DNA of 64,000 bases from Clavaria fumosa. Lineage: Eukaryota > Basidiomycota > Agaricomycetes > Agaricales > Clavariaceae. The notes below the pieces were generated by a model. The model did not search any database. It was not told the DNA's origin and worked only from the letters and a program-made list of their open reading frames with translations. Positions 23,901 through 64,000 of this stretch are shown here, piece by piece. Position 1 is the stretch's first letter. Every line of letters starts with the position of its first letter. The position numbers and the translations under genes are program-made. The stretch is from contig OX637795.1 in assembly GCA_951802425.1 (NCBI GenBank), positions 930,001 to 994,000 on the forward strand. The letters run 5' to 3'.

Positions 23901-26900
23901 CAGCACAGGGAAAGTACAATGAGGCAGAGGAGCTGCAATTAAATGTGATGGATGCCAGCAAAAGATTGCTTGGACCAGAGCATCCTGTCACCCTGATAAT
24001 TACTGCCAATTTGGCAATCACATATTCAGTACAGGGAAAGTACAATGAGGCAGAGGAACTGCAACTACATGTGGTGGAAGCCAGCAAAAGATTGCTTGAA
24101 CCAGAGCATCCTGACACACTGGCAATTATTGCCAATTTGGCAATCACATATTCAGCACAGGGAAAGTACAATAAGGCAGAGGAGCTGCAATTACATGTGA
24201 TGGAAGCCAGCAAAAGATTGCTTGGACCAGAACATCCTGTCACCCTGACAATGACTGCCAATTTGGCAAGGACATATTCAGCACAGGGAAAGTACAATGA
24301 GGCAGAGGAGCTGCAATTAAATGTGATGGAAGCCAGCAAAAGATTGCTTGGACCAGAGCATCCTGACACATTGGCAATTATTGCCAATTTGGCAACCACA
24401 TATTTAGCACAGGGAAAGTACAATGAGGCAGAGGAGCTGCAATTACATGTGATGGATGCTAGCAGAAGATTGCTTAAACCAGAGAATCCCAACACACTGG
24501 CAATTATTGCCAATTTGACAACAACATATTCAGCACAGGGAAAGTACAATGAGGCAGAGGAACTGCAACTACATGTGGTGGAAGCCAGCAAAAGATTGCT
24601 TGAACCAGAGCATCCTGACACACTGACAATTACTGCCAATTTGGCAAGGACATATTCAGCACAGGGAAAGTACAATGAGGCAGAGGAGCTGCAATTACAT
24701 GTGATGGAAGCCAGCAAAAGATTGCTTGGACCAGAGCATCCTGTCACCCTGACAATTACTGCCAATTTGGCAAGGACATATTCAGCACAGGGAAAGTACA
24801 ATGAGGCAGAGGAGCTGCAATTACATGTGATGGATGCCAGCAGAAGATTGCTTAAACCAGAGCATCCTGACACACTGGCAATTATTGCCAATTTGACAAC
24901 ATCATATTCAGCACAGGGAAAGTACAATGAGGCAGAGGAGCTGGGATTAAATGTGATGGAAGCCAGCAAAAGATTGCTTGGACCAGAGCATCCTGACACA
25001 TTGGCAATTATTGCCAATTTGGCAACCACATATTCAGCACAGGGAAAGTACAATGAGGCAGAGGAGCTGCAATTAAATGTGATGGATGCCAGCAAAAGAT
25101 TGCTTGGACCAGAGCATCCTGTCACCCTGATAATTACTGCCAATTTGGCAATCACATATTCAGTACAGGGAAAGTACAATGAGGCAGAGGAACTGCAACT
25201 ACATGTGGTGGAAGCCAGCAAAAGATTGCTTGAACCAGAGCATCCTGACACACTGGCAATTATTGCCAATTTGGCAATCACATATTCAGCACAGGGAAAG
25301 TACAATAAGGCAGAGGAGCTGCAATTACATGTGATGGAAGCCAGCAAAAGATTGCTTGGACCAGAACATCCTGTCACCCAGACAATTACTGCCAATTTGG
25401 CAAGGACATATTCAGCACAGGGAAAGTACAATGAGGCAGAGGAGCTGCAATTAAATGTGATGGAAGCCAGCAAAAGATTGCTTGGACCAGAGCATCCTGA
25501 CACATTGGCAATTATTGCCAATTTGGCAACCACATATTGAGCACAGGGAAAGTACAATGAGGCAGAGGAGCTGCAATTACATGTGATGGATGCTAGCAGA
25601 AGATTGCTTAAACCAGAGAATCCCAACACACTGGCAATTATTGCCAATTTGACAACAACATATTCAGCACAGGGAAAGTACAATGAGGCAGAGGAACTGC
25701 AACTACATGTGGTGGAAGCCAGCAAAAGATTGCTTGAACCAGAGCATCCTGACACACTGACAATTACTGCCAATTTGGCAAGGACATATTCAGCACAGGG
25801 AAAGTACAATGAGGCAGAGGAGCTGCAATTACATGTGATGGAAGCCAGCAAAAGATTGCTTGGACCAGAGCATCCTGTCACCCTGACAATTACTGCCAAT
25901 TTGGCAAGGACATATTCAGCACAGGGAAAGTACAATGAGGCAGAGGAGCTGCAATTACATGTGATGGATGCCAGCAGAAGATTGCTTAAACCAGAGCATC
26001 CTGACACACTGGCAATTATTGCCAATTTGACAACATCATATTCAGCACAGGGAAAGTACAATGAGGCAGAGGAGCTGGGATTAAATGTGATGGAAGCCAG
26101 CAAAAGATTGCTTGGACCAGAGCATCCTGACACATTGGCAATTATTGCCAATTTGGCAACCACATATTCAGCACAGGGAAAGTACAATGAGGCAGAGGAG
26201 CTGCAATTAAATGTGATGGATGCCAGCAAAAGATTGCTTGGACCAGAGCATCCTGTCACCCTGATAATTACTGCCAATTTGGCAATCACATATTCAGTAC
26301 AGGGAAAGTACAATGAGGCAGAGGAACTGCAACTACATGTGGTGGAAGCCAGCAAAAGATTGCTTGAACCAGAGCATCCTGACACACTGGCAATTATTGC
26401 CAATTTGGCAATCACATATTCAGCACAGGGAAAGTACAATAAGGCAGAGGAGCTGCAATTACATGTGATGGAAGCCAGCAAAAGATTGCTTGGACCAGAA
26501 CATCCTGTCACCCTGACAATTACTGCCAATTTGGCAAGGACATATTCAGCACAGGGAAAGTACAATGAGGCAGAGGAGCTGCAATTAAATGTGATGGAAG
26601 CCAGCAAAAGATTGCTTGGACCAGAGCATCCTGACACATTGGCAATTATTGCCAATTTGGCAACCACATATTTAGCACAGGGAAAGTACAATGAGGCAGA
26701 GGAGCTGCAATTACATGTGATGGATGCTAGCAGAAGATTGCTTAAACCAGAGAATCCCAACACACTGGCAATTATTGCCAATTTGACAACAACATATTCA
26801 GCACAGGGAAAGTACAATGAGGCCCAGGAGCTGGGATTAAATGTGATGGAAGCCAGCAAAAGATTGCTTGGACCAGAGCATCCCAACACACTGACAATTA

Positions 26901-29062
26901 CTGCCAATTTGGCAAGGACATATTCAGCACAGGGAAAGTACAATGAGGCAGAGGAGCTGCAATTACATGTGATGGAAGCCAGCAAAAGATTGCTTGGACC
27001 AGAGCATCCTGACACATTGGCAATTATTGCCAATTTGGCAACCACATATTTAGCACAGGGAAAGTACAATGAGGCAGAGGAGCTGCAATTACATGTGATG
27101 GATGCCAGCAGAAGATTGCTTAAACCAGAGCATCCTGACACACTGGCAATTATTGCCAATTTGACAACAACATATTCAGCACAGGGAAAGTACAATGAGG
27201 CAGAGGAGCTGGAATTAAATGTGATGGAAGCCAGCAAAAGATTGCTTGGACCAGAGCATCCTGACACACTGGCAATTATTGCCAATTTGGCAATCACATA
27301 TTCAGCACAGGGAAAGTACAATAAGGCAGAGGAGCTGCAATTACATGTGATGGAAGCCAGCAAAAGATTGCTTGGACCAGAACATCCTGTCACCCTGACA
27401 ATTACTGCCAATTTGGCAAGGACATATTCAGCACAGGGAAAGTACAATGAGGCAGAGGAGCTGCAATTAAATGTGATGGAAGCCAGCAAAAGATTGCTTG
27501 GACCAGAGCATCCTGACACATTGGCAATTATTGCCAATTTGGCAACCACATATTTAGCACAGGGAAAGTACAATGAGGCAGAGGAGCTGCAATTACATGT
27601 GATGGATGCTAGCAGAAGATTGCTTAAACCAGAAAATCCCAACACACTGGCAATTATTGCCAATTTGACAACAACATATTCAGCACAGGGAATGTACAAT
27701 GAGGCCCAGGAGCTGGGATTAAATGTGATGGAAGCCAGCAAAAGATTGCTTGGACCAGAGCATCCCAACACACTGACAATTACTGCCAATTTGGCAAGGA
27801 CATATTCAGCACAGGGAAAGTACAATGAGGCAGAGGAGCTGCAATTACATGTGATGGAAGCCAGCAAAAGATTGCTTGGACCAGAGCATCCTGACACATT
27901 GGCAATTATTGCCAATTTGGCAACCACATATTTAGCACAGGGAAAGTACAATGAGGCAGAGGAGCTGCAATTACATGTGATGGATGCCAGCAGAAGATTG
28001 CTTAAACCAGAGCATCCTGACACACTGGCAATTATTGCCAATTTGACAACAACATATTCAGCACAGGGAAAGTACAATGAGGCAGAGGAGCTGGAATTAA
28101 ATGTGATGGAAGCCAGCAAAAGATTGCTTGGACCAGAGCATCCCAACACACTGACAATTACTGCCAATTTGGCAAGGACATATTCAGCACAGGGAAAGTA
28201 CAATGAAGCAGAGGAGCTGGGATTAAATGTGATGGAAGCCAGCAAAAGATTGCTTGGACCAGAGCATCCTGACACACTGACAATTACTGCCAATTTGGCA
28301 AGGACATATTCAGCACAGGGAAAGTACAATGAGGCAGAGGAGTTGGGAATAAATGTGATGGAAGCCAGGAAAAGATTGCTTGGACCAGAGCATCCTGCCA
28401 CCCTGACAATTACCAACAATTTGGCAATGATATATTCAGCACAGGGAAAGTACAATGAGGCAGAGGAGCTGGGAATAAATGTGATGGAAGCCAGGAAAAG
28501 ATTGCTTGGACAAGAGCATCCTGCCACCCTGACAATTACCAACAATTTGGCAATGATATATTTAGCACAGGGAAAGCATAATGAGGCAGAGGAGCTGCAA
28601 TTACAAGTGATGGAAGCCAGCAAAAGATTGCTTGGACCAGAGCATCCTGACCCACTGAATAGCATTGCCAATTTGAGCAAGGTACATTCAGCTTACAGAA
28701 AGCATAAAGAGATACAAGAGTTGGCATTACATGTTCAGGCATCATCTCATACCTCCCAACATCCCAATTTAATTGCTGTTGAGTTGGCAGACTCCCCCTA
28801 TTCTTCAGGCATGCAGCATGATTTCACAGAACTGCAAGAGCCTCTCAACAACAGACGGAGCATCCCTAACATGTCTGAACTGCTTAGGACAGCTTCATTG
28901 CTTACCTCTCATCTACCAAACCCACAGACCCAAGTCTCCCTCTCTATCTCTAGTTCTGAAGTTAGAGTTACTAAGAATACCCGAGACACAGAAGATTTTG
29001 ACACTGCAAGATCCTCTTGTATTGCTCAACTGAGGCTCTTGTTCTCCTGCTTATGCCCCTGA
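20906..29062 (+). pseudogene. NB-ARC/TPR STAND (NLR-like) protein with 49 TPR units, two in-frame stops
   Basis: Proposed exons 20906-20951, 21004-21042, 21092-21320 and 21376-29062 add to 2,667 codons with consistent phases; an earlier 5' exon is possible. Family role: nucleotide-dependent signalling switch, in fungi linked to non-self recognition and cell death. A short N terminus is followed by FTGREGYLERL, P-loop GMGGIGKTQ, kinase-2 WLLVYDNAG, sensor GNILITSRNP, LPLAVDQAG, a winged-helix-like region and MHPLVHIW. From about 22560 come 49 kinesin-light-chain-type TPR units of 42 residues (pattern YNEAEEL-x-VMEASKRLLGPEHP, then TL-x-NLA-TY). TGA codons at 23333-23335 and 25538-25540 break the frame inside the repeats, otherwise open to 29062. 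A non-repeat tail follows unit 49. It is a pseudogene, a truncated protein, or affected by sequence errors. Confidence 0.88.
22560..28700 (+). repeat. 126-bp tandem coding repeat with higher-order 1134-bp units
   Basis: 49 units of 126 bp. The distinctive unit starting at 24451 returns at 25585 and 26719 (1134 bp = nine units each) and again at 27601 (882 bp = seven units). By eye the 1134-bp copies are nearly identical; differences noticed are 25380 (A against T) and 25539 (G against T, the stop). Confidence 0.92.
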
Positions 29063-46242: not shown

Positions 46243-47309
46243 ATGCTTTGCTACTGCTCTCAGTGCTATCCAAGTCACAATCAGACTCTTAGGACAATCC
46301 AAAAGCATCTCAAAGAGGACTTGGACTTGCTTAGCCAAGGTAGCCACACTGATGAGTTCCTTATTCACTTACAGGACTGCATTGAGAGGACTGGGGACTC
46401 CCTCTCAAGCATAGAATCTGGCAAACAAGGTATGTTTCATTCCATATCTTTAAAATACTTCTTTGCTCATGGTCTCATTTACACTAGCTGAGATGGACCT
46501 TAAAGGTATATTTATTTGATGCAAAGATGGGATAAATTGACATTTCTGGCCCTTCAGAATCCTACACCGGCCAAGGTAAGATAACTTTTACCTGACTGAA
46601 CTGTTTCATATGCTGATGCTGACATATAGGGACCATGGACATAGATCAAGGTACAGTAGGCCTGGGACCAATTTAAGAGAAACTAATTTGTTTATTATGT
46701 GCTCAGATTTTCTGGCAATACAAGGTAAAGCTTTTCTCACCTTAATTTTATTCATACTCAAATGACAAACTTAACAGATGCTGAACAATCAGATGATGCA
46801 GATGGTGAGTAGTTTTTACTTTATATTACATGCTAGTCTATATGTACCATAAATCTGAACTGAAAGCAGATGAAGATGAAGATGTCTCATCTTCTATAGA
46901 GCTGCTGGTGTTCCCTGCAGCAGAGGATCAGATAGCCAGTTCCAATGGCTCAGAAAGTTCTGGGAGCAAGGGTGATGATGAGATGGATGATGGCCTGGAT
47001 GATGGCCTGGATAGTGAGGTTGATGTTGGGTGGGAGAGGAGCCATTCAGATGATGAACCAGAGGGGGTTGTACAATTCAGTCTCCCAAGTTCATTGATAG
47101 AACTCCATCAGAAACTGCTTCACATAGTTCAGTCGGATATTCTAGTATACAACGGGATACCGGACACTGCAAATCCCCTGTATATAATGGGGTACCGGAT
47201 TCCGCCGGAGATATCTGATTTTCTAGTAATATATGTGGCCGGCGGAGGATATCCTTGCCAGGATAACCATGGGTTCAGCGAATTAAATAGGATATTCTTG
47301 ACCGGATAA
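46243..47309 (+). pseudogene. unrecognised gene with five micro-exons, running into satellite DNA
   Basis: Exon 1 (46243-46429) begins MLCYCSQCYPSHNQTLRTIQ, a CX2C-containing start of the kind I associate with Agaricomycete transposon-borne proteins (from memory, unverified). Then come exons 46488-46505, 46558-46575, 46630-46650, 46707-46724 and 46778-46804 (18, 18, 21, 18 and 27 nt), all flanked by phase-1 introns, and exon 7 from 46867. The encoded linker is short and acidic (for example DAEQSDDAD and ADEDEDVSSS). Exon 7 is coding-like to about 47120 (VVQFSLPSSLIELHQKLLHI) and then becomes satellite sequence with a stop at 47307-47309. The gene is truncated or interrupted here. Confidence 0.6.
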
Positions 47310-50300
47310 CCTCAGGTCCAGCAAAATTGGATAGGGTATCCATGACTGGATTGAATCCAGGCCACCAAATTAAATAGGATATCCTTAACTGGATTGAATC
47401 CAAGCAACCATAATAAATAGGATATCCATGACTGAAGAAAATCCAGGCCACCAAATTAAATGGAATATCCTTGATTGGATTGAATCAGGGATACCATAAT
47501 AAATAGGATATCCTTGACAGGTTTGAATCCAAGCCAGCAAATTACATAGGATATCCTTGACTGGTTTAAATCCAAGCCACCAATTTAAATAGGTTATCCT
47601 TGACTGGTTTCAATCCAAGGTACCAAATTAAATAGGATATCATATCCTTGACTGGATTGAATCCAAGCCACCAAATGAAATAGGATATCCATCAATCAAT
47701 CACATCCAGGCTACCAAATTAAATAGGATATCCTTGATTGGATTGAATCCAGGCAGATATATTAAATAGGATATCCTTGACTGGTGTGAATCCAAGCCAC
47801 CAAATTTAATAGGATATCCTTGACAGGTTTGAATCCAAGCCACCACATTAAATAGGATATCCTTGACTGGTTTGAATTGAAGCCACCAAATTAAATAGGA
47901 TATCCTTAACTAGTTTGAATCCAAGCCAACAAATTAAATAGGATATCCTTGACAGGTTTGAATCCAATCCACCAAATTAAATAGGATATCCTTGACTGGT
48001 TTGAATCCAAGCCAACAAATTAAATAGGATATCCTTGACTGGTTTGAATCCAGGCCAACAAATTAAATAGGATATCCTTGACTGGTTTGAATTGAAGCCA
48101 CCAAATTAAATAGGATATCCTTAACTAGTTTGAATCCAAGCCAACAAATTAAATGGGATATCCTTGACTGGTTTGAATCCAATCCACCAAATTAAATAGG
48201 ATATCCTTGACTGGTTTGAATCCAAGCCAACAAATTAAATAGGATATCCTTGACTGGTTTGAATCCAAGCCACCAAATTAAATAGGATATCCTTAACTAG
48301 TTTGAATCCAAGCCAACAAATTAAATGGGATATCCTTGACTGGTTTGAATCCAATCCACCAAATTAAATAGGATATCCTTGACTGGTGTGAATCCAATCC
48401 ACCAAATTAAATAGGATATCCTTGACTGGTTTGAATCCAAGCCACCAAATTAAATAGGATATCCTTAACTAGTTTGAATCCAAGCCAACAAATTAAATGG
48501 GATATCCTTGGCTGGTTTGAATTGAAGCCACCAAATTAAATAGGATATCCTTAACTAGTTTGAATCCAAGCCAACAAATTAAATGGGATATCCTTGACTG
48601 GTTTGAATTGAAGCCACCAAATTAAATAGGATATCCTTAACTAGTTTGAATCCAAGCCAACAAATTAAATGGGATATCCTTGACTGGTTTGAATCCAATC
48701 CACCAAATTAAATAGGATATCCTTGACTGGTGTGAATCCAATCCACCAAATTAAATAGGATATCCTTGACTGGTTTGAATCCAAGCCACCAAATTAAATA
48801 GGATATCCTTAACTAGTTTGAATCCAAGCCAACAAATTAAATGGGATATCCTTGACTGGTTTGAATTGAAGCCACCAAATTAAATAGGATATCCTTAACT
48901 AGTTTGAATCCAAGCCAACAAATTAAATGGGATATCCTTGACTGGTTTGAATCCAATCCACCAAATTAAATAGGATATCCTTGACTGGTTTGAATTGAAG
49001 CCACCAAATTAAATAGGATATCCTTAACTAGTTTGAATCCAAGCCAACAAATTAAATGGGATATCCTTGACTGGTTTGAATTGAAGCCACCAAATTAAAT
49101 AGGATATCCTTAACTAGTTTGAATCCAAGCCAACAAATTAAATGGGATATCCTTGACTGGTTTGAATCCAATCCACCAAATTAAATAGGATATCCTTGAC
49201 TGGTTTGAATCCAAGCCAACAAATTAAATAGGATATCCTTGACTGGTTTGAATCCAGGCCAACAAATTAAATAGGATATCCTTGACTGGTTTGAATCCAG
49301 GCCAACAAATTAAATAGGATATCCTTGACTGGTTTGAATTGAAGCCACCAAATTAAATAGAATATCCTTAACTAGTTTGAATCCAAGCCAACAAATTAAA
49401 TGGGATATCCTTGACTGGTTTGAATCCAATCCACCAAATTAAATAGGATATCCTTGACTGGTTTGAATCCAAGCCAACAAATTAAATAGGATATCCTTGA
49501 CTGGTTTGAATCCAGGCCAACAAATTAAATAGGATATCCTTGACTGGTTTGAATGCAGGCCACCAAATTAAATAGGATATCCTTGACTGGTTTGAATGCA
49601 GGCCACCAAATTAAATAGGATATCCTTGGCTGGTTTGAATTGAAGCCACCAAATTAAATAGGATATCCTTAACTAGTTTGAATCCAAGCCAACAAATTAA
49701 ATGGGATATCCTTGACTGGTTTGAATCCAATCCACCAAAGTAAATAGGATACCCTTGACTGGTTTGAATCCAAGCCAACAAATTAAATAGGATATCCTTG
49801 ACTGGTTTGAATCTAGGCCAACAAATTAAATAGGATATCCTTGACTGGTTTGAATGCAGGCCACCAAATTAAATAGGATATCCTTGGCTGGATTGAATTG
49901 AAGCCACCAAATTAAATAGGATATCCTTATCTAGTTTGAATCCAAGCCAACAAATTAAATAGGATATCCTTGACTGGTTTGAATTGAAGCCACCAAATTA
50001 AATAGGATATCCTTAACTAGTTTGAATCCAAGCCAACAAATTAAATGGGATATCCTTGACTGGTTTGAATCCAGGCCACCAAATTAAATAGGATATCCTT
50101 GGCTGGTTTGAATTGAAGCCACCAAATTAAATAGGATATCCTTAACTAGTTTGAATCCAAGCCACCAAATGAAATAGGATATCCATGACTGGTTTGAATT
50201 GAAGCCACCAAATTAAATAGGATATCCTTAACTACTTTGAATCCAAGCCAACAAATTAAATGGGATATCCTTGACTGGTTTGAATCCAATCCACCAAATT

Positions 50301-50395
50301 AAATAGGATATCCTTGACTGGTGTGAATCCAGGCCACCAAATTAAATAGGATATCCTTGACTGGTTTGAATCAAGGCCACCACATTACATAGGAT
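47246..50395 (+). repeat. 43-bp satellite, left array (about 73 copies)
   Basis: Head-to-tail 43-bp units, each containing the palindrome GGATATCC and words such as GGTTTGAATCCAAGCC and AAATTAAATA. Units are more diverged at the outer end (47.25-47.7 kb). Inside, a three-unit (129-bp) superrepeat alternating GAATTGAAG, TTAACTAG and AATCCAATCC variants is visible. Confidence 0.95.
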
Positions 50396-50618
50396 ATTTT
50401 GCATCTCTGGCAACTGTCATGTGATTCACTTTATGTACGTGGTTACTGTCCACAATATTTCCATGTACTTCATTGATAAGTAGCATATTTCAAGTCGCAG
50501 TTCCCACTTTGACTCTTTTTGCACCTATCACTGCCTCTTTTCCTTGGTCTCTTCCTCTCCTTAGTGATTTATTCCTGTGCTTTGTTAATAGTTGTAATCA
50601 CAATTATTTGAGATAGAC

Positions 50619-53264
50619 TCACAGGCCTCGAGCCAATGGAATCAGTTTGAAAACAGCTGAAATTTCTCGTACCATTGTGGTCCAGTCGACCTTGTCGTCG
50701 TCTTTCAGCGTCAATCCCCACGTCTTCATTCCTACCATAACCATCGCAATACCTGCGAGCCCTGCCCCACACCAGTCAGTCAGGATGAGCGCATCTGCAT
50801 CGCGCAGAACTCCATGTGGCATTATTTGTTGCCACCAGTTGGCCATGTCGTCTGCAATCCCCGAAAAGTCTTGTGTGTCATCCCAGTTACGAGCTTGGCG
50901 TGCTTGACTCCAGTTCCTGAGTGATTCAGGAACTGCAACCTGTCGATTCTCCAATTTTAATGGAGTCCCTCCAAGGCTCCCCAAAGCTGTCTCAGCGGCA
51001 ATCCATGCCTCACATAACGCATACCAATCATTGCCAAGGCTTTGTACGTCATGGTGACCCAGACCCATATCCTGTGATGCCCGTTGGATCAAAGATGGAA
51101 GGCTGCTGAGCTTAAATGGTCGAGGCTTCAGAGTCCGCATAACACCCTGAGAGGTTTGCAATGCGTTGGCTTCCAGTCTAAATTTTCATTTAGACTTAAA
51201 AGAGACAGAACAAATAAATTCTTACGTTTTAACACTAGCAGACAAGTAAGCAGCAGCTTGGGTCATTGCATCCCACAGTGGAAGCTCAGCATTGAGACAA
51301 TATCCTGGTGTATTTGGCGCAATAGAGTCAGGCTCAGTGAAAAGGATTTCGCTGAGTTGTTTGAGTCCGAGTCCTAGGCCGAGCAATATCCTTTCGATGA
51401 ACCCAGGTGGTGCCACTGAGTTTGGCAAAGAGCCTCTCCAAGACGATGCCCTGATCCAATCAGAAAAGGCAACAGCACTGTCCGGATGTTCAAGGTCTGA
51501 AGAGAAAAATTCCTTCGGTAGCCATTCGTTGTCAAATGTCCAGCAGGCGAAGGTTGCTGGGATGAGACGGCTGGTGGTTCCTGGACGCTGCCACAGACTC
51601 AGATACTGACCCTCAAAAGACAAATAAACATACTGCATATTGGAGAAGCTTGAGTGCATGGACGTAGTCTTGTTGATTTGTTAGTTTCTTCAGGTATGCA
51701 AGACGGTTGACGGCTGTTGCTGGAGAGCCTGGGGCAGGCTCGAATCCAACTACTTTCTTGCCCTTGTCAACTGTCAGCGCTCTCTCAGACAGCGCGTCTG
51801 TCCCCTTTGCCTCCGGCTCTGCGTCCTTGTCAGCGGCGTCTGGACCATCATCTAACACTTCGTTTCCCACATCTGAATCCATACCCAACCTGATGAATGT
51901 CAAAGGCCTCAGGCCTTGCTGCTGTTTCGTGTACCAGTAAGAATACAAGGCAATTGCCTCAGTCTTGGGCATGTATGAAGGATCTTGAAGGCGGCTGTCT
52001 GGCAGAATGCCATCCTTTACAAATTCTTCAGGACTGGCAGCGATTCTTTTCCATGGAACAAGTGCAGTTTGCTTTTGAACCACTGAAAATGATATAAGTC
52101 ATGATTCAGAAGTGAGAAAAAAATCTTACAGTAGACAGCCTTCACAAATTCACGAATCACGTCCTTCAAAGAAGGAAGTGAGACGTCAAGTGGGAGTTTC
52201 CCAAGGAGGGGGTAGCCAGCATCGTCGTAGTTCAGCTTCCCCCAAGATCTGTCGTCTTCTTGATAATTATCTGGATGATAATTAATACCAGACAACTTAG
52301 TGAAATAAACTACTTACTATTTCCCAAAGACGCATTGTATCTGCACCAGCTGGGCCAAATTTTCCCAGTTTTCCAATCCGCACATGCCTTGGTGAATTTT
52401 TGCCCTTTGTTGCTCGTTTCGAACCTTAGACATAGATTAGCATGGAGAGACAGCAGACAAAGCAAAAATTACTTTGAGCAAATCGCCTGACCCTCCTCAT
52501 CCTCAAATGACGTGAGCATGAAGACATGTACCCCCATCTTGTGGTACACATCGTCCATGAATTGTGTGACAACTTTATATAAGTCTTTCTCGGCCATCCT
52601 AAACAGGAATGAGAAGGGGAGAATGTCACAGATATAAAATACTCACTCCCTCTGCAGATCATGAGGCCATGCACCTGAATTCCAAGCGTGTGCTTGGTCC
52701 GTACATTGTTTCCTGTCCGCTTCGGAAAGGCCATTCAACACTTTCGTGAGTGCTGGCTGATATGCCGCAAATGGTGTCCGGCCCTCCTCGACCAACCTCG
52801 TTACTTCCTGCTGCACTTCCTCTTGATAAACTCGTCCAACTACTCGTCTCAGGTTCCATTTACGCCCCCACACCGACCTCTCATTATTCTTATCTTCCCC
52901 CTCAACATCATCATCACTCCCATTGTTGCCATCACCTTGGCCATTTCCATCATCAGCATCATCTCGACTGCGAGACATTGGGTGACCCCCTGATACTCGT
53001 TTGGCTCTCGCATTTTTGAACCATGTTTGAACAGCCTACTGAGTTTTTAGTCCAAAAAAATGTAATTACTTGTCAATTTACCTTTGAGAGATCCAGAGGC
53101 AGCTCAGGCAGCCGTTTTCCCTTGGAAACCCGTTGCTGATGAGCCTCCCGCAACTGCTGCACAGTAGTTCTGATGTGATCTGACCGCTCCTTACCCTTTG
53201 TGGCAAGCCACATTGGGAAGGCATTTTCTAGGATAGGAATATAGAGATCGATAGCCCAAGGCAT
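50619..53264 (-). CDS. unrecognised protein with WFKN motif, KDZ-element neighbour
   Basis: Exons (partly approximate): 53082-53264, 52647-53035, 52473-52598, 52318-52424, 52130-52270, about 51665-52083, about 51222-51613, and about 50619-51180. Frames join without lesions, about 800 residues. It starts MPWAIDLYIPILENAFPMWL. The second exon opens with VQTWFKNARAKR, which resembles the recognition helix of a homeodomain (WF-x-N-x-R-x-K), then an acidic stretch. Next come MGVHVFMLTSFEDEEG, FTKACADWKTGKIWPSWCRY and a C-terminal region rich in Trp. From memory, proteins of this layout are common hypothetical proteins in Agaricomycetes; no biochemical role is known to me. It reads away from the histone-mimic gene across a palindromic intergenic region. 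Confidence 0.65.
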
Positions 53265-53304
53265 GCCTGACTTAGCTTTGAGGCAGGGAGGCAGGAGGCA
53301 GAGG

Positions 53305-53760
53305 TGGAAATATTTTAAACGAACGATCACGTGACCGTTGGATCCCCGCGCGACACGGTCACATGGTCTGACCACGTTGCATAATCCAGTGCTCGTATTT
53401 AAATATTGAGGGAGAAATTAGAAATTTCATCTTGGACAATCTACCCAAATTAAATCTGTGATCATTTTGTCTCACTAAAACTAAGCTTCAAAATGCCTGT
53501 GTAAGCCTGCAACTTCGTCGCAACTTTTGGGTCAGTGGTGGGAGGTCACAACATTTACAAACAACCCTGTGTTGGCAGGGATTGCCCCCATATCATGTGC
53601 AACGTAGTCAGACCATGTGACCGTGGGAGGTCACAACATTTACAAACAACCCCGTGTTTGGCAGGGATTGCCCCCATATCATGTGCAACATAGTCAGACC
53701 ATGTGACCGTGTCGCGCGGGGATCCAACGGTCACGTGATCGTTCGTTTAAAATATTTCCA
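53305..53760. repeat. perfect 68-bp inverted repeat between divergent genes
   Basis: 53305-53372 and 53693-53760 are exact reverse complements, 68 of 68 by my reading, separated by 320 bases. Each arm contains TCACGTGA and a CGCGCG run. Next to the right arm an 85-bp direct duplication lies at 53538-53707. The left arm abuts the start of the minus-strand gene, so the arms may be a shared promoter or internal element ends. Confidence 0.9.
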
Positions 53761-53892
53761 ACTCCGACCGCTTCGACGCTCATCTCTTTCTCCTTAACCA
53801 CTACTACCGTCTTCTTTCCTCGAACTCATCAACTCTCTTGACTCACAGGTACGTATTTTATTTTATCTTTTATGTAGCCTTAGTAGACGGTG

Positions 53893-53942
53893 GCCTTAGT
53901 AGACAAATGACCGGATGCATACGGTCATTTGTCTACTAAGGC
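53893..53942. repeat. perfect 21-bp stem hairpin
   Basis: 53893-53913 and 53922-53942 pair perfectly around the 8-base loop GATGCATA. A further copy of the outer arm (GCCTTAGTAGAC) precedes it at about 53878. Confidence 0.9.
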
Positions 53943-53981
53943 TACCTTAGATACATAAACATCTCTTTTGCAGTCTTTTGG

Positions 53982-54460
53982 TCTGGGGGTAGGGAGTGAG
54001 CGCCTCGGTGCGCTCACTCCCAAGACCCTCGGTGGTCTTTTTCGATCTGGGGGCAGGGGGTGAGCGCCTCGGTGCGCTCACTCCCAAGACCCTCGGTGGT
54101 CTTTTTCGATCTGGGGGCAGGGGGTGAGCGCCTCGGTGCGCTCACTCCCAAGACCCTCGGTGGTCTTTTTCGATCTGTGGGCAGGGAGTGAGCGCCTCGG
54201 TGTGCTCACTCCCAAGACCCTCGGTGGTCTTTTTCGATCTGTGGGCAGGGAGTGAGCGCCTCGGTGCGCTCACTCCCAAGACCCTCGGTGGTCTTTTTCA
54301 ATGGTCTTTTTCGATCTGGGGGCAGGGGGTGAGCGCCTCGGTGCGCTCACTCCCAAGACCCTCGGTGGTCTTGATGATCTGGGGCAGGGCTGGGCACCTC
54401 GGCGCATGCCACAGACCTTCGGCAGTCTTGAAGATCTAGGGCCGCAGGCACTTTGGTGCG
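53982..54460. repeat. 64-bp tandem repeat, each unit with two hairpins
   Basis: Units start at 53982, 54046, 54110, 54174, 54238 and 54315, with diverged ones at 54378 and 54435. Each good unit contains stem GTGAGCGC/GCGCTCAC and stem AAGACC/GGTCTT, and both stems enclose the same loop CTCGGT. One unit carries a 13-base extra piece. Confidence 0.92.
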
Positions 54461-54479
54461 TTTCCATTTCCCATTTTAC

Positions 54480-54830
54480 TCATATTGACACTCTCTATCC
54501 TTCTGGCAAAGCGTGTCTTGACACATGGGTCTTCGCACCTGACACTTGTATTTGTTGGGAATGTGGGTGTTTCGTGCGTTTCCATTTACTGTTTTACTGA
54601 CATTGACACTGACTATCCCTCCAGCACAATCACGTCCTCGACACATCCCGACTCACCGGTCTTCACACCCGACACACGGGTCTTCGCACCTGACACTTGT
54701 CTGGAGCAGGGAATGTGGGTGTTTCGTGTGTTTCCATTTACTATTTTACTGACATTGACACTGACTATCCCTCCAGCACAATCACGTCTTCGACACATCC
54801 CGACTCACCGGTCTTCACACCAAACATCCG
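54480..54830. repeat. 152-bp tandem repeat, about 2.3 copies
   Basis: The word GGGAATGTGGGTGTTTCGTG recurs 152 bases apart (54557 and 54709) with surrounding sequence also repeated, and a partial copy follows. The region is non-coding by appearance and lies upstream of the histone-mimic gene. Confidence 0.8.
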
Positions 54831-55099
54831 CTGACAAGTCATCCTTTTTTTGTCTTTTGCGCGCTGTAGCAGTAGTTATTCATGTCGTAGTAGGGGAGGG
54901 GTAGCGGGGATATTCAATGCTGGCCACATTGAGTATCCTTTCTGCCCTGACCATATACTTTTTTCATGTGACTTGTAATAATTACTTGTAATTTGTCGAA
55001 CTCTCATACCCGTTATAAGGCGAGATTCTGCTCCTACGTGTAAGTCACGTGACCACCGAGTGGCTGAGCGGCTAAGCACTTTGACCTCGAACCGTCACA

Positions 55100-56753
55100 A
55101 TGCCAAGAACGAAACAATCGGCATCCAGGTCAACTGGTGCTCCATGTGTGAGAGTGACCCTTCACCCGTCTGCCATCAAACAAAATGCGCAGCCTATCGC
55201 TCAACCGATTGGAATTAGGGTGAGTCCTCGACTCTTCTGTCGATTTGATCGAGCTGATCAAGGGACACAGACAGGTGACAGAGCCCCAAATGATGAAGTC
55301 AGACTACTTAACTCCATCTAATATAGTACTGACCTTTTGCAGTGGTGCTGCAGCTGCGGCGATGGCGGAAATCTCTTGGACTGCGATTTTTGTGAGCGAG
55401 CCGTGTGCAGCAAATGCCTCGATCTTTCTGGAGGCTCCAAGCTCATCAAAGAGCCCGACGTCAATTTTTTTTGCATGGGCTGTCATTTAGGCTCAGAGAA
55501 TCGAGCTGAGCCCTTCTATGTAAGTACTGATCTTTATCAACACAAATTTATTGACATAGAATGTTGAATTACAGCCTCTCTACCGCAACGGCGAGCCCAT
55601 CAAAAGTGTCATTGGGCATATCAAGCCCACGACACTAAGGGGCAATTACGCACGGCAAAACACGAACTCGTTGGCCATCGTCAACATTCGACTGTGCACG
55701 ATCCCAACCCAAGGCGATCCATACATTTCCGTCGCCAACACCTTGGCCGGCTGGTTCGCCAGCATATCTGAAAGAAGGATGTTATTTACCAAAGAGGTAG
55801 TCTTGGATATTGATGCGGCGAATCCAAGATCATTGGCCAAGCATCAGAGAGTTCTCAAGGATATCATCAAAAGCTTTCAACAGTGAGTCCGTTTTATTAC
55901 GATTGAATGCAGCTGATTGCTCCAAACAGATTTGGAGTCCGGAGGCTCGTCGTATTCCTGTTTACCCACGCCAATCCCGAGAATGGTGACCTCCATTGTG
56001 CTAATAACTCAGGAATCCAAGTTGAAAGCGTAAGCTCATCCATACCATCAAATGGTCGCTTACTGATGTAGTCTACCTTTTCAAAAGTTTCTGGCTCAAA
56101 TTTTTGGGCAAGATCTCCTTCAGTTTGCACAGGAAGTACATTCACTTCTTGTCCTCGAGGTTTGTGGCGGAGTTTGGGAGAACGCGGCGTCGTGCAAAGC
56201 AGTGACGGATTTTGCTCAAAGGTATGTCTTGGCCCCACCCCTGCTTCCAATGCTGATGATGCCCAGTGCATATTTCAATCACGTCATTGGCTTTGGCCAA
56301 GCCAATTTCTTTCCCCATCTAGCTATTCCATTCCTCACAAAACTTATCATCAAAAATTTCATCGAATGTTTCTCGATCCTCCGAATTCTGCCAGATCTTC
56401 TCAAGGAGGAGGAGGGTCTTGGTGCCCACACCTCCATCCTTCTTTTGTCTCACAGATTCGCCTTGGAATACATATGGGTTCACCACCAACTCCGCCCATT
56501 CGGTGATGCCGTCGCCCTCCAGTGCCCGAAGTGTTACGCAATTCGGACCCTCACATTCAAGCTACTGGACAGCAAATCGGGCAGTTACCAGGCAAGCTGT
56601 CCTTGTGGTTGGGCCGACAAGAAACCCTCTGGCTTGGGTGACGCAACCTTGCCAAAGGGCCCGACGGGATGGGCCACTCGCCTGTTGTATGGAACTCCGG
56701 CCATTGTGGATGGTATATGGAAGTTGCCACGTTTGATGTATAATATTGTCTGA
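55100..56753 (+). CDS. histone-H3-tail mimic with ADD/PHD-like zinc finger
   Basis: Exons 55100-55219, 55271-55297, 55343-55519, 55575-55882, 55930-56029, 56088-56221 and 56267-56753 give 450 residues; the 45-nt last intron is optional because it is in frame. Residues 1-15 read MPRTKQSASRSTGAP, close to the H3 tail ARTKQTARKSTGGKAP. Residues 50-93 form a cysteine finger (CCSCGDGGNLLDCDFCERAV, then CSKC and CMGC) that resembles the PHD part of ATRX/DNMT3 ADD domains, which read H3 tails. The remainder has FLAQIFGQDLLQFAQE and YIWVHHQLRPFGD, and a C-terminal zinc-ribbon-like pair (CPKC, CPCGW). It is probably nuclear and may bind or imitate chromatin. It is intact, on the same strand as and 533 bp upstream of the KDZ transposase. 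Confidence 0.8.
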
Positions 56754-57286
56754 GCCATGTACAAGTTTGTCTTGTTTGCCTCCATGCTACCCATGTCTAC
56801 CTACGAAATTCCAATGCTACCCGTGTCTACCTACGCAATTCCAAGATCACCTTCAGTGAAAACAAGATAGGCCATCGCTTCGCTCTGGCAGTTTTCTATT
56901 TATCCAGCAGTTTTCTAATAATCTGAAGTCCTGTATTATATACATTACATTAGTAGTGCTATGTTCACCACTACGTAGGCAGATTAGGAGGTCACATCGT
57001 CTTTGGGGAAGGAGGACGCAGGCATGCTCTATGTAAAAAACGCAGCGTCTCATGTTACGAAAGACACACTACATCACGAAATGGACTACAACATGGCATT
57101 AGGCAACAACCGAACGACCTCCGAACAGTACGGGACGTTGAACACATGAAACGGCAGACAATATGGAACAGGATGAAAACAGCCTGCGCCGCACCTACCT
57201 CACACACAAAATCATGTGACTGATCACATGTTGAGATGTTGAGAGCACATCATGTGACACTGACAGTATTCTGAACGTCACTCAAG
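56754..57286. other. intergenic before the KDZ gene
   Basis: Contains a 31-32 base direct duplication at about 56782-56843 (both with GTCTACCTACG). Otherwise no feature recognised; presumed to hold the terminator of the upstream gene and the promoter of the transposase. Confidence 0.5.
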
Positions 57287-60200
57287 ATGCGGTCAGTCAT
57301 TGGGAAAGAAGGACGAGCAGTAGAGAGAACATACACAATAAAAAAGCTCTCAAGGGGGAGGAAGGTCAGGAAAAAAGATCAGCAGATCACTCATAACACT
57401 AGAGCAGGTTCTCAATCCCCATCTCAACCTAAAAAACGAGCAAGGGAGCCCAGCCATCTGTATGAAAATTTGGATTTTGGGAAGGACGACATACTGCCTG
57501 GACAGGAAAGTTCAGATTCAAATTCAAAAAGGCCAAGAAAGGGGAAGGTAGTTGAATTAATTCTGACCAATTTTGATTTACATTGACATTCTGCAGACAC
57601 AAAATGATTTCCTTCAAGAATGGAAGGACAATGCATGCAATCTGCATCTCTCTGAATTAATGGAGTTTGAAGCTCCTCCTGAAAACCAGAACTGCATGCT
57701 CTGTCACAAACCCTTGGCTTTATACCGGTGTTTTGACTGTTTGTACAGCACCCAACTCGTCTGCCTTGATTGCTGTCTTCTGCAACATCAACGCCATCCA
57801 TTCCATCAAATCAAAAAATGGACAGGAACATTTTTTGACAGGAGCGACCTTGGAGATATGGGGCTTTCCATCAATCTTGGCCATGGCGGCAATTTGTGCC
57901 CTGGATACCATGCTGAACTTCCTCACACTGTGATTGATGAACGAAGAATCTGGGATGGGGATGAGTCTGATGATGATGAGTCTCTGGAAGAACTGCTGCC
58001 AGGGGTGGACAGCTTTCAACAGACTCATGGAATAACATTCATAACCAGCTCTGGTGTTTTCAAGCGTCCAGTGAAATGGTGCATCTGTCCAAATGCACCA
58101 TCTAATCATCTCCAGCTGCTTCGGATGCGCTTTTTCCCTGCCAGTCTTCAGAGGCCCTCAACTGCATTCACATTTGATGTCCTCAAGTTGTTTCATATCG
58201 ATGTTATGGAGTGCAAAACTGCTGCACGAAGCTTCTACTCAAAGCTGCAGAGAATGACTAATAGTGGATTTCCCTCTTCGATCCCAGTAAGTAGCAAAAC
58301 CTCCTGATTAGATACAACATCCTAACCCCAAAGGTTTTCAGGATCGTTACCGTGAACTCATGAGGGTCTCAAGACAGTGGAGGCATCTGGAAATGCTTAA
58401 GAGGGCAGGATTTGCACATCATCCTGAGCAAGAGCAGACACCTGGTGACCTTGCACTTTTTTGCCCTACCTGCCCTCAACCTGGAATAAATGTGGCAGTT
58501 GAAGAGGTGAAAGAATCCATGAATCCGTAAGTTCATTAAATTTTTTTCCAAATGCAGAAATTGATTAAAAATTACAGTAGCATTTATCACCGATCTATCG
58601 TAGCTGATGGAAATTTTAAACTGGAGCATGTGAAGTCGAAATGGTCTGAGGGTGATGTCTCCTTAAGTGATGGAAGAGGTTTTATGGTCCAGGATAAACC
58701 CTACCAAGCTCACATTGCTGCATCTGTCGAAGTAAAACAGGTGACCCTTCAAGTTGGACACCATTCAGGATATTTGTTGACAACATTCTATAGAAACCAA
58801 GATGTCACAATCATCGAGCAATTACCCAGGTGAACGGTCACAGTGGACGAAAACGAGATCACCTACGAGCAACTGGAGGCGGAGTATGTGCTTGTGCACG
58901 TCATGGATGCTTTTATCCACACAGCTTCGTTGATTTTCAGAAGGGAGAGAGGTAAGACTTATAATCTTCAAGGTGTCTGGGCTAAGTTTTGTTTTTTCAG
59001 GCAGGCAAACATTGATTATTCACTTTGCCAAGCCCTTCAGAGAGTAAATGTCATCAAGAAGGTGCTTTTTGTCTATGACATAGGATGTGAATGGGGAAGA
59101 CACTTTCGGGACCGAGTTGAAGCAAGCAAATACCTGCATCTCGATGATGGCCTGAAGATTATCACAACAGTAGGGAAATTTCACTTGGGAGCACATATCA
59201 AGGAGTGCTTTGCACTTTTCTCCTTGAACTTTGTTCAAGGTGTGGGGCAATTGGATGGCGAGATTTTGGAAAGTCTCTGGTCAACCCTTGGCAAAGCAGC
59301 CAGCCATACCAGAGGAATGTCTCAAGCTCATCGACAGGAGGTTCTCGACAACCACATGAATGATTCTAACTGGAAGAAGATGATCAAAGCATGTAAGTAT
59401 GTGTTCTTATGGTCATAGATATTTTTTTGATGTGTTTAAAACAAAGCACATTCAATCCTTACGAAGTGGAAGAATGCGCAACAGCAACAGGCAGAAACTA
59501 AATCAGCTCTGGATGAATTGACAGCTAGAATCAGCCATACATGGGTATCAGAGTGGAGGCAATTGGAGGAAAGAGCAATGACTGAGCGAGGAGATTTGCT
59601 CAGAATATATGATGTTGCAAAAACAAATGGTCGGCCATTTCTTACCCCTTTTTGCTTTTGATTGAAGTGCTTTGAAGCCCCTAGCTGTGCAGAAATTGAA
59701 CTAGAGCTATCACAGAAGGAACGGAACGCAGGTGATTTATCTGGTGGTGCCAGTCTTCTAGCTTTAGGCATACAGTTGGAAAATGAACAGTAAGTTCTCA
59801 TTATGACGTGTATTTCTTTGCGATTTACATTCACATACCACTAGAGCATCATTAGCAGCATATACAAAGACACTGAGAAAACCTTCAACATCCCAGCGAA
59901 GAGAGCTTGAGGAGAAAAGAAGGCGCCTTCAAATCAGGATTACAAAATATGAGAAATGCTGGTCTGACTCGACTCTCTTCATGGGCAAGGCTATTGACTT
60001 GGGAGAAAACCATCTATTGTACCAGGAGAATGAAAGCGAGATCGAGGACAATGATCTGGGCACAGCTGATGAGTGGGAGGATGACAGCAATGGGCTTCAC
60101 CCCGAGGCGATGACTATATTCCTTCCATCAAACATGGGTGGCGAGAATCACATGGAAAGTGGTTTGGAAGACATGGCTGCATGTGAAGCAAAACTCCGGG

Positions 60201-60923
60201 TTGGACAAATGAATGATGCCCTTGAAAAACTTAGGATTGCCTTGGGGGAGAAGTCTCTTATATTCAGAGAAAAGGTGGGCTCATTGATCATTTTAATACC
60301 AGCACTGAGATATCAATTGTTCAGGTCCAGAAGTGCAAGAGTCAACAACTTGCTACCAGAGCTTGGAGTCAAGTGCACTCCATGGAGTCACGGGTACAGC
60401 AGGCAGTCAGGGAATATAAAAGGGCTCGAGCTGCAGCCCAGAGACTGGGGTCCCTGGATCCAAAGTATCAGGACATCTCAAAAGATGACTTGAAAATGCC
60501 TGGGGATGTGATCGAAGAAAACAGGATTGGTCAGTGATCAGAGAAACTATCCTGGTTGTGGAGGTTGGATAGTGGGATGAACAAAGGAGAATGCAGTGAG
60601 AGAATGAAGGAATGTGAGTGGATGGTGTGGTATGTCATGAATGAAAAATTGACAAATGATTAGTCTACAGAGTGGTTTGGTTGAGAGCAAGTGCAAGGTT
60701 CAATCGCTGGAATGAGGAAGTCACTTTGCTTCAGCAGGAAATGAAGTGGACAGCCACATTTTTCAAGCACAAGAAAGATCAATGGGAGCAAATAGCAATG
60801 AATGAAAGAAATGTAAGGAGTGGGCTGGCATGTTATGCTCACAAGCAGGAGGTGGTATGGGAAAGATTTGAAGGACATGCAAGGAAGATTTTTAGAAGTA
60901 GTTGTCAACTGGAGCCAATCTAA
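57287..60923 (+). pseudogene. KDZ-type transposase, complete except one nonsense codon
   Basis: Exons 57287-57547, 57597-58286, 58342-58526, 58578-58740, 58794-58951, 59001-59392, 59447-59629, 59678-59789, 59845-60274, 60325-60613 and 60664-60923 total 1,041 codons with consistent phases. Features: basic N terminus, CxC2-like cluster (CMLCHKPLALYRCFDCLY, then HPFHQIKKW and NLGHGGNLCP), FTFDVLKLFHIDVMECKTAA, CHNHRAI, ACARHGCFYPHSFVDFQKGE, and catalytic-region motifs VYDIGCEWG (Asp), VGKFHLGAHIKEC and GQLDGEILESLW (Glu). A TGA at 60535-60537 lies where the frame otherwise continues (GQ, stop, SEKLSWLWRL). A CGA to TGA change at CpG is the simplest cause. About 107 C-terminal residues would be lost, including the FYRVVWLRA motif. 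Confidence 0.9.
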
Positions 60924-61012
60924 TGAGCCTTCTTCATAGAGCAGTTGATAGGTCTACTGTGAAGTGCAGGAATATCTCTGCTGGACTGGTGTCATACAGG
61001 ACATGGATATCC

Positions 61013-64000
61013 CAATATCTCTAATGATATCCTATTTAATGTAGTGGCTTGGATTCAAACCAGTCACGGATATCCTATTGACTTTGGCAGCTTGGATTAC
61101 AACCGTTCAAGGATATCCTATTTAATTTGGTGGTCTGGATTGAAACTAGTCAAGGATATCCTATTTAATTTGGTGGTCTGGATTGAAACAGGTCAAGGAT
61201 ATCCTATGTATTTTGGTAGCCTTGATTCGCACAAGTCAAGGATATCCTATTTACTGTGGCGGCTTGGATCCAAACCAGTCAAGGATATCCTATTTAATTT
61301 GGTGGTCTGGATTGAAACTAGTCAAGGATATCCTATTTAATCTGGTAGCTTGGATTGAAACTAGTCAAGGATATCCTATTTACTTTGGTAGCCTTGATTC
61401 AAACTAGTCAAGGATATCCTATTTACTTTGGTAGCCTGGATTGGAACTAGTCAAGGATATCCTATTTATTTTGGTAGCCTTGATTCAAACTAGTCAAGGA
61501 TATCCTATTTACTTTGGTAGCCTTGATTCAAACCAGTCACGGATATCCTATTGACTTTGGCGGCTTGGATTACAACCAGTCAAGGATATCCTATTTACTT
61601 TGGTAGCCTAGATTGGAACTAGTCAAGGATATCCTATTTATTGTGGTAGCCTGGATTCAAACTAATCAAGGATATCCCATTTATTTTGGTAGCCTTGATT
61701 CAAACTAGGTAAGGATATCCTATTTACTTTGGTAGCCTGGATTCAAACTAATCAAGGATATCCTATTTACTTTGGTAGCCTAGATTGGAACTAGTCAAGG
61801 ATATCCTATTTATTTTGGTAGCCTGGATTCAAACTAATCAAGGATATCCCATTTATTTTGGTAGCCTTGATTCAAACTAGGTAAGGATATCCTATTTACT
61901 TTGGTAGCCTTGATTCAAACCAGTCACGGATATCCTATTGACTTTGGCAGCTTGGATTACAACCAGTCAAGGATATCCTATTTACTTTGGTAGCCTAGAT
62001 TGGAACTAGTCAAGGATATCCTATTTATTGTGGTAGCCTGGATTCAAACTAATCAAGGATATCCCATTTATTTTGGTAGCCTTGATTCAAACTAATCAAG
62101 GATATCCTATTTACTTTGGTAGCCTGGATTGGAACTAGTCAAGGATATCCTATTTATTTTGGTAGCCTTGATTCAAACTAGGCAAGGATATCCTATTTAC
62201 TTTGGTAGCCTGGATTGGAACTAGTCAAGGATATCCTATTTATTTTGGTAGCCTGGATTGGAACTAGTCAAGGATATCCTATTTACTTTGGTAGCCTTGA
62301 TTCAAACCAGTCACGGATATCCTATTGACTTTGGCGGCTTGGATTACAACCAGTCAAGGATATCCTATTTACTTTGGTAGCCTAGATTGGAACTAGTCAA
62401 GGATATCCTATTTATTTTGGTAGCCTGGATTCAAACTAATCAAGGATATCCCATTTATTTTGGTAGCCTTGATTCAAACTAGGTAAGGATATCCTATTTA
62501 CTTTGGTAGCCTAGATTGGAACTAGGCAAGGATATCCTATTTATTTTGGTAGCCTAGATTGGAACTAGTCAAGGGTATCCTATTTATTTTGGTAGCCTGG
62601 ATTCAAGCTAGTCAAGGATATCCCATTTATTTTGGTAGCCTTGATTCAAACTAGGTAAGGATATCCTATTTACTTTGGTAGCCTGGATTCAAACTAATCA
62701 AGGATATCCTATTTACTTTGGTAGCCTGGATTGGAACTAGTCAAGGATATCCCATTTATTTTGGTACCTTGATTCAAACTAGGCAAGGATATCCTATTTA
62801 TTTTGGTAGCCTAGATTGGAACTAGTCAAGGGTATCCTATTTATTTTGGTAGCCTGGATTCAAGCTAGTCAAGGATATCCCATTTATTTTGGTAGCCTTG
62901 ATTCAAACTAGGTAAGGATATCCTATTTACTTTGGTAGCCTGGATTCAAACTAATCAAGGATATCCTATTTACTTTGGTAGCCTGGATTGGAACTAGTCA
63001 AGGATATCCCATTTATTTTGGTACCTTGATTCAAACTAGGCAAGGATATCCTATTTATTTTGGTAGCCTAGATTGGAACTAGTCAAGGGTATCCTATTTA
63101 TTTTGGTAGCCTTGATTCAAACTAGTCAAGGATATCCCATTTATTTTGGTACCTTGATTCAAACTAGGCAAGGATATCCTATCTATTTTGGTAGCCTTGA
63201 TTCAAACTAGGCAAGGATATCCTATTTATTATGGTAGCCTTGATTCAAACTAGGCAAGGATATCTTATTTATTTTGGTACCTTGATTCAAACTAGGCAAG
63301 GATATCCTATTTATTTTGGTAGCCTAGATTGGAACTAGTCAAGGGTATCCTATTTATTTTGGTAGCCTGGATTCAAACTAGTCAAGGATATCCCATTTAT
63401 TTTGGTAGCCTTGATTCAAACTAGGTAAGGATATCCTATTTACTTTGGTAGCCTGGATTCAAACTAATCAAGGATATCCTATTTACTTTGGTAGCCTGGA
63501 TTGGAACTAGTCAAGGATATCCCATTTATTTTGGTACCTTGATTCAAACTAGGCAAGGATATCCTATTTACTTTGGTAGCCTGGATTCAAACTAGTCAAG
63601 GATATCCCATTTATTTTGGTAGCCTGGATTCAAACTAGTCAAGGATATCCTATTTATTTTGGTAGCCTTGATTCAAACTAGGCAAGGATATCCTATTTAC
63701 TTTGGTAGCCTGGATTGGAACTAGTCAAGGATATCCTATTTATTTTGGTAGCCTTGATTCAAACTAGGCAAGGATATCCTATTTACTTTGGTAGCCTGGA
63801 TTGGAACTAGTCAAGGATATCCTATTTATTTTGGTAGCCTTGATTCAAACTAGGCAAGGATATCCTATTTACTTTGGTAGCCTGGATTGGAACTAGTCAA
63901 GGATATCCTATTTATTTTGGTAGCCTGTATTGGAACTAGTCAAGGATATCCTATTTATTTTGGTAGCCTTGATTCAAACTAGTCAAGGATATCCCATTTA
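61013..64000 (-). repeat. 43-bp satellite, right array (at least 69 copies), inverted to the left array
   Basis: 43-bp units running to the window edge. Their reverse complement is about 90% identical to the left-array unit, including GGATATCC. Units in the first 300 bases resemble the left array more (AATTTGGTGG); later ones share TTTGGTAGCC. Confidence 0.95.

Follow-up and report, generated by a model that had tools for sequence, protein, structure and literature searches.

The two opposed arrays of a 43-bp satellite at the right of the window, a stretch of 64,000 bp corresponding to C2:930001-994000, appear to be the ends of a KDZ transposon and to move with it, a reading well supported by comparing the copies of the element in the genome (48.76 Mb, 17 contigs). 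In the window's copy, both arrays sit within the target site duplication. We consider it rather probable that this is a cut-and-paste KDZ DNA transposon whose arrays are bound by the transposase and grow in place. The element is probably autonomous, and Kyakuja would be its most likely placement among the KDZ groups.

The element in the window

The copy spans C2:977121-996459 (19,339 bp; window positions 47121 to 66459), its right end at C2:996459 lying 2,459 bp past the end of the window, and is bounded on both sides by the 7-bp target site duplication ACTGCTT. Its features within the window are as follows.

47114..47120, no strand: left target site duplication ACTGCTT, with the same 7 bp immediately following the right tip (C2:996460-996466) and contiguous empty-site relatives elsewhere (92-97%)
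47121..47280, plus strand: left terminal tip (TIR proper), starting with CACATAGTTCAGTCGGATATTCTAG, with a sharp alignment border across copies, differing from the right tip at 3 of 160 bp
47281..50397, plus strand: left satellite array with left-type consensus, the 43-bp monomer being present in 72.3 copies at 87% matches (TRF, monomer typing)
50619..53375, minus strand: cargo gene region in several open pieces, with a homeodomain helix-3-like WFKNARAK segment (open reading frames; Pfam Homeodomain below cut-off)
53982..54389, no strand: 64-bp hairpin-forming tandem repeat between divergent genes (TRF; single-strand DNA fold of 53982-54180, z -6.48)
55085..56753, plus strand: second cargo gene region, with a PHD-like zinc-binding segment (open frames; Pfam PHD below cut-off)
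57287..60493, plus strand: KDZ transposase gene region in several open pieces, CxC2 then KDZ domain (Pfam CxC2 E 1.8e-24, KDZ E 5.8e-30)
60971..61022, minus strand: relic monomer of the sister type (B) where the right array begins on its inner side, 52 bp (C2:990971-991022; sequence read), matching the family-B array at 87%
61026..64000, minus strand: right satellite array, inverted, right-type consensus, 69.3 copies within the window, going on past it (TRF; tip and target duplication)

The initial annotation had set the left limit of the structure at 47127, where an array-bearing element does lie, although its true end is 6 bp further out, and had proposed looking for a target duplication matching about 47.12 kb, which was found as ACTGCTT. 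The element termini read CACATAG...CTATGTG, and eight aligned loci, six in one orientation and two in the other, share a sharp border at CACATAGTTCAGTCGGATATT. The TIR proper is a non-satellite tip of about 160 bp, outside the array at each end; eight of the nine whole copies have 1-3 differences in 160 bp between left and right tip, the ninth (C5a) being without a left tip. The view that terminal inverted repeats had expanded into satellites is supported, the arrays lying inside the target duplication, with the refinement that the TIR proper is the tip. The tip pattern gave 71 matches genome-wide and none for a reversed control, which excludes chance as their source.

The annotated numbers of satellite copies, about 73 on the left and at least 69 inverted on the right, agree with TRF (72.3 and 69.3). 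For the right array of the whole element, TRF reports 110.3 copies plus an adjoining 11.5 and a monomer scan 112, all array copy numbers being those of the assembly. We think it unlikely that the arrays are an assembly artefact, as their lengths differ and left and right monomer types are consistent over nine loci.

The KDZ transposase gene annotated between the arrays is confirmed by matches over the Pfam cut-offs to the KDZ domain (PF18758) and, N-terminal to it, to the CxC2 cysteine cluster; the genome holds 185 KDZ matches. A gene had also been placed close to the left array, and the nearest open frame, on the minus strand, ends 222 bp away (50619 vs 50397). In this minus-strand cargo, Homeodomain matches with E 0.019 and 15.2 bits against a cut-off of 22.9 when candidate exons are joined by eye, and with E 0.081 in a single open piece. 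In the second cargo gene, PHD matches one open piece of 66 aa with E 0.017 and 15.5 bits (cut-off 24), and Pfam finds no PHD in the longer joined candidate. As both matches are sub-threshold, named functions were rejected for the two genes. We also rejected TET/JBP as cargo of family A, to which the window's copy belongs, since none of the genome's 64 TET/JBP matches lies inside a family-A tip pair (positions compared by eye). Several TET/JBP matches lie about 2 kb from KDZ matches (e.g. C1:479215/481297, C8:739298/741382).

The hairpins of the 64-bp repeat are near-perfect, and its copy number varies among copies of the element. Beside them, the window contains a short inverted sequence, GTAGCCTTAGTAGAC / GTCTACTAAGGCTAC (53880-53960). 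Outside the element, positions 22603-28680 hold 48 copies of a 126-bp (42-residue) repeat with 89% matches, whose unit resembles a TPR-type repeat, and this region has long open frames on both strands (2055 aa on the minus strand; 692, 734, and 1159 aa on the plus strand).

Copies, target duplications and empty sites

Many matches of a 274-bp left-border query (best 40 of 92 candidates) occur as opposed pairs, and 24 tip pairs were found among 73 of 95 tips, so that further 43-bp array pairs, for which the initial annotation had proposed a search, do exist in the genome. All nine whole copies of family A have both arrays, with about 28-92 monomers on the left and 37-112 on the right of a core that measures roughly 10.3-11.2 kb. 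In 18 places, including the window, the KDZ half (about 3.7 kb) of another query is present at 99-100% identity. The burst of family A looks recent, because the cores of the nine copies differ pairwise at only 30-88 positions in about 10.5 kb.

Perfect 7-bp duplications flank 13 of the 16 family-A tip pairs whose flanks were read (7 of 8 in a first set, 5 of 7 in a second, and C2:1961624-1979301). The duplications of C9 and C12 are imperfect, with one and two mismatches, and the flanks of C7a contain no matching target duplication. The 13 perfect duplications represent 11 distinct sites, because C3a, C4a, and C2:4719918 share one host site. C2:4719918, C3:237957, C4:4000408, and C7:191953, which lie about 190-600 kb from contig ends, have one host flank in common (C7:191953 on a single side); these loci are probably duplicated subterminal segments.

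When the flanks of ten insertions were joined with one copy of the duplication and searched against the genome, a contiguous empty site was found elsewhere for seven (C2a, C11a, C8a, C5b, C1b, L049, and L052; 92-100%), while C4a, L051, and L054 gave no through-junction match among the best 40 of 364 candidates. The initial annotation had looked to alleles lacking the insertion; loci without it do occur, but as paralogous sites in repeated sequence, not alleles. Among the insertions, C11a appears to lie in a reading frame of Copia type (judged by eye), and C5:1428481-1443219 sits inside the 43-bp array of another copy, its duplication TTTTGGT being taken from the monomer.

Satellites free of such elements had been named as evidence against the proposal, and none turned up among the family-A arrays listed. 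Merging 64 matches of a 2.3-kb array query (best 39 of 51 candidates) gave at least 40 family-A arrays, and 36 of the 40 listed are in a tip pair (27) or beside a single tip (9). The other four have no tip within 1.5 kb; they lie 8-14 kb from a tip, one being the left array of C5a, and look like arms of truncated copies. Single tips with an array and no partner found also occur, e.g. C2:696517, C13:795712, and C2:3938817.

The passages of Kojima 2025 (PMC12730594) on Kyakuja-1_LB and Kyakuja-2_LB of Laccaria bicolor describe 7-bp duplications, 5'-CA..TG-3' termini, no TIRs, and carriage of TET/JBP, and those on Zisupton and a Dileera family give 8-bp duplications. Compared with these descriptions, family A resembles Kyakuja in its KDZ transposase, its 7-bp duplication, and its CA..TG termini, and differs in its long TIRs, which bear satellite arrays, and in its tip pairs, where no TET/JBP match falls. 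We take the lack of TIRs as descriptive of the two L. bicolor families, not as defining, and the probable assignment to Kyakuja follows duplication length and termini. Zisupton and Dileera, as described there, are KDZ transposase relatives with a duplication of 8 bp, whereas that of family A is 7 bp: the flanking 8 bases differ in eight of eight copies and 7 agree in seven of eight.

Related families and the monomer motif

The tip pattern also picks up shorter tip pairs, six of which were read (3.4-6.8 kb). All six have perfect 7-bp duplications, corresponding to four distinct sites because three share flanks; their arrays, likewise opposed, consist of another 43-bp monomer, and we assign them to family B. 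Tips were compared with those of family A in five of the six elements (all but L054): identity is 80-84% along 137 bp in four of them, for L050 at just one end, while L051 reaches 76-78% along 134-161 bp. A nucleotide comparison of four of these elements with family-A cores gave no match, and the middle of L049 reads as a long palindrome (by eye). Besides the annotated arrangement of KDZ and cargo genes between opposed arrays, opposed arrays of a sister satellite are therefore also present in short elements, with no KDZ core detected in the four compared.

Larger relatives in family B, with KDZ regions 86-89% identical to family A, were found at C3:1767008, C8:559986, and C2:220559. The first two carry B-type arrays of 50 and 43 monomers on their right arms, and the third has B-type arrays nearby. 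C8:548660-565650, the only long B element with both flanks read, has no matching duplication. At least 31 family-B arrays were obtained by merging 37 of 46 matches (best 40 of 52 candidates); the remaining 9 matches were family-A arrays hit at their inner edges. Those listed comprise 16 in pairs, 9 beside a tip, and 6 without a tip, one of which, C1:812911, is far from any tip.

The A-left, A-right, and B consensus monomers have in common an unbroken 12-nt run, TAGGATATCCTT, a length that only 1 of 20,000 shuffled B monomers reaches in any rotation. Outside the run, the three consensuses agree at only 13 of 31 positions, although the KDZ regions are 86-89% identical. The palindrome GGATATCC is exact in 88% of 484 left, 90% of 624 right, and 92% of 357 B monomers, all gathered by similarity to the consensus with at most 16 mismatches, the 484 including strays outside contiguous left runs, which hold 457. 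The most conserved 8-mer windows are those covering GGATATCC or most of it, and mean conservation is 0.964-0.969 at monomer positions 9-19 vs 0.895-0.910 elsewhere, a modest gap between core and spacer within a family. Successive GGATATCC lie 43 bp apart far more often than at any other spacing (family A, 900 cases; short B elements, 268). Ahead of the array, the family-A tip has GGATATTC at 15 and GGATATCC at 127, and the one B tip tested also has GGATATCC at 127.

A third KDZ family, f237 (KDZ protein identity 68% over 139 aa), has GRATATYC at 44/88-bp spacing. Its arrays of 44/88-bp period contain GAATATTC 13 times in each of two stretches, leaving out a repeat inserted between them, and not in the rest of the 13 kb. 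Its right tip, CACATCGTTCAGTCAGATATT, is a related sequence, and the search for a left tip over the 6.5 kb upstream gave only two chance-like matches with 4 substitutions. In the 13 kb read, the f237 array looks one-sided, unless the left end is further out, as expected of a Kyakuja element without TIRs. Two more distant families with 36-37% identity, f421 and f488, lack GGATATCC throughout the 13 kb examined of each and have ATGCAT-type repeats instead, in f421 (L061-L062) as a 21-bp array near the right end and in f488 (L059-L060) as other inverted repeats beside the KDZ gene. The GGATATCC motif is therefore not KDZ-wide, and we rejected satellite ends with a common motif as a property of KDZ elements in general.

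The foldback elements FB of Drosophila and Galileo have long inverted ends of tandem repeats, variable copy number, and transposase-less derivatives, and their transposases belong to non-KDZ superfamilies. Family A is like them in its long inverted tandem-repeat ends inside a target duplication, and the short B derivatives in having the same kind of ends, with no KDZ core detected in the four of six compared. Family A differs in its fixed 43-bp period, in a palindromic core kept across two monomer types, and in its KDZ transposase, which led us to reject membership in FB or Galileo. KDZ elements of Marasmius oreades have characterised TIR motifs, given in the supplement of that study (PMC8290104), whose main text contains neither 'satellite' nor 'tandem repeat'.

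Growth of the arrays and their possible role

In each of the nine whole family-A copies, monomer typing assigned nearly all monomers of the left array to the left type and nearly all of the right array to the right type. Because the two are distinct in sequence in all nine, the arrays appear to expand in place. All nine copies have near-identical outermost monomers and, on the right, a B-like innermost one; B-like inner edges were found at at least nine places among the B-array matches listed, six of them in these copies. Together with the separation of arm types, this argues for growth that is internal and arm-specific, and a B-like array seems to have given way to the A-type. We see no support for exchange between an element's two arms, the types being separate except for tip-proximal and inner-edge monomers and scattered calls. 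C3a and C4a have the same duplication and flanks 99.4% and 98.8% identical over 494 bp on the two sides, yet 106 and 45 right monomers (a difference of 61), so array length probably changes without transposition.

The best inference from motif and spacing is that the KDZ transposase binds the arrays at a pitch of four helical turns. The ends would be foldback-like, with a tip of about 160 bp followed inward by tens to more than a hundred 43-bp monomers, inverted between the ends. The transposase may bind the palindrome GGATATCC, or more widely GRATATYC, first at the spaced tip sites and then once per monomer, and these sites, about four helical turns apart, would thus face one side of the DNA. 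Each array would grow or shrink in place, independently at the two ends, via unequal exchange or slippage, its spacer sequence turning over while motif and period are retained. Long arrays might raise end capture by the transposase and would for that reason be favoured in competition among copies.

Alternatively, the mobile ends may carry functionless arrays made by tandem duplication inside a long TIR, a neutral account that we regard as rather unlikely, although several observations fit it. Copy numbers vary as widely as described above, left arrays differ by about 4-12% (BLAST) vs the few differences among cores, and the contrast between C3a and C4a is what in-place turnover predicts. The common run is in itself no proof of selection, because A and B share ancestry, as their related tips and the B-like relic inside A indicate; it could reflect descent rather than selection, and amplification of one seed monomer, if recent, could also have kept the motif. 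Functionless arrays are harder to reconcile with the loss of an array in none of the nine whole copies, with a motif and period that outlast the change of monomer between families, and with a third family having a similar palindrome at a 44-bp period.

Satellites can affect chromatin, and instead of binding transposase the arrays might have a role in chromatin or in evading silencing, or buffer recombination. The 64 genomic TET/JBP matches, none in family-A tip pairs, are a possible sign of methylation conflict, but such a role alone leaves the fixed-spacing palindrome, also found in the tips, unexplained, and we judge it improbable. Least credible of all is a host satellite that the transposon entered or captured, the arrays not being part of the element: C5:1428481-1443219 does lie inside a 43-bp array, but this array borders on a different copy at its tip C5:1444587, 36 of the 40 listed arrays are tied to tips, and a chance KDZ insertion is refuted by target duplications outside both arrays and by joined, satellite-free flanks that match contiguously elsewhere.

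Returning to binding by the transposase, we tentatively raise a broader possibility, in which the transposase of one KDZ lineage reads GRATATYC at a fixed pitch of about 43-44 bp and copies compete by multiplying this site into hundred-unit satellites. Families would then carry unrelated-looking satellites in the same helical register, because the intervening sequence is free to turn over.

The target duplications and empty sites show that a mobile DNA transposon can have satellite arrays of kilobase length as its ends, here in the KDZ superfamily, whose Kyakuja branch was described without TIRs in the L. bicolor accounts cited. Two families with different monomers and the same core and pitch amount to a natural experiment that predicts a binding site and its spacing. 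Transposons may also be a route by which satellites are seeded at many loci and, if the selfish competition among copies holds true, satellites would arise as ligand arrays of a transposase.
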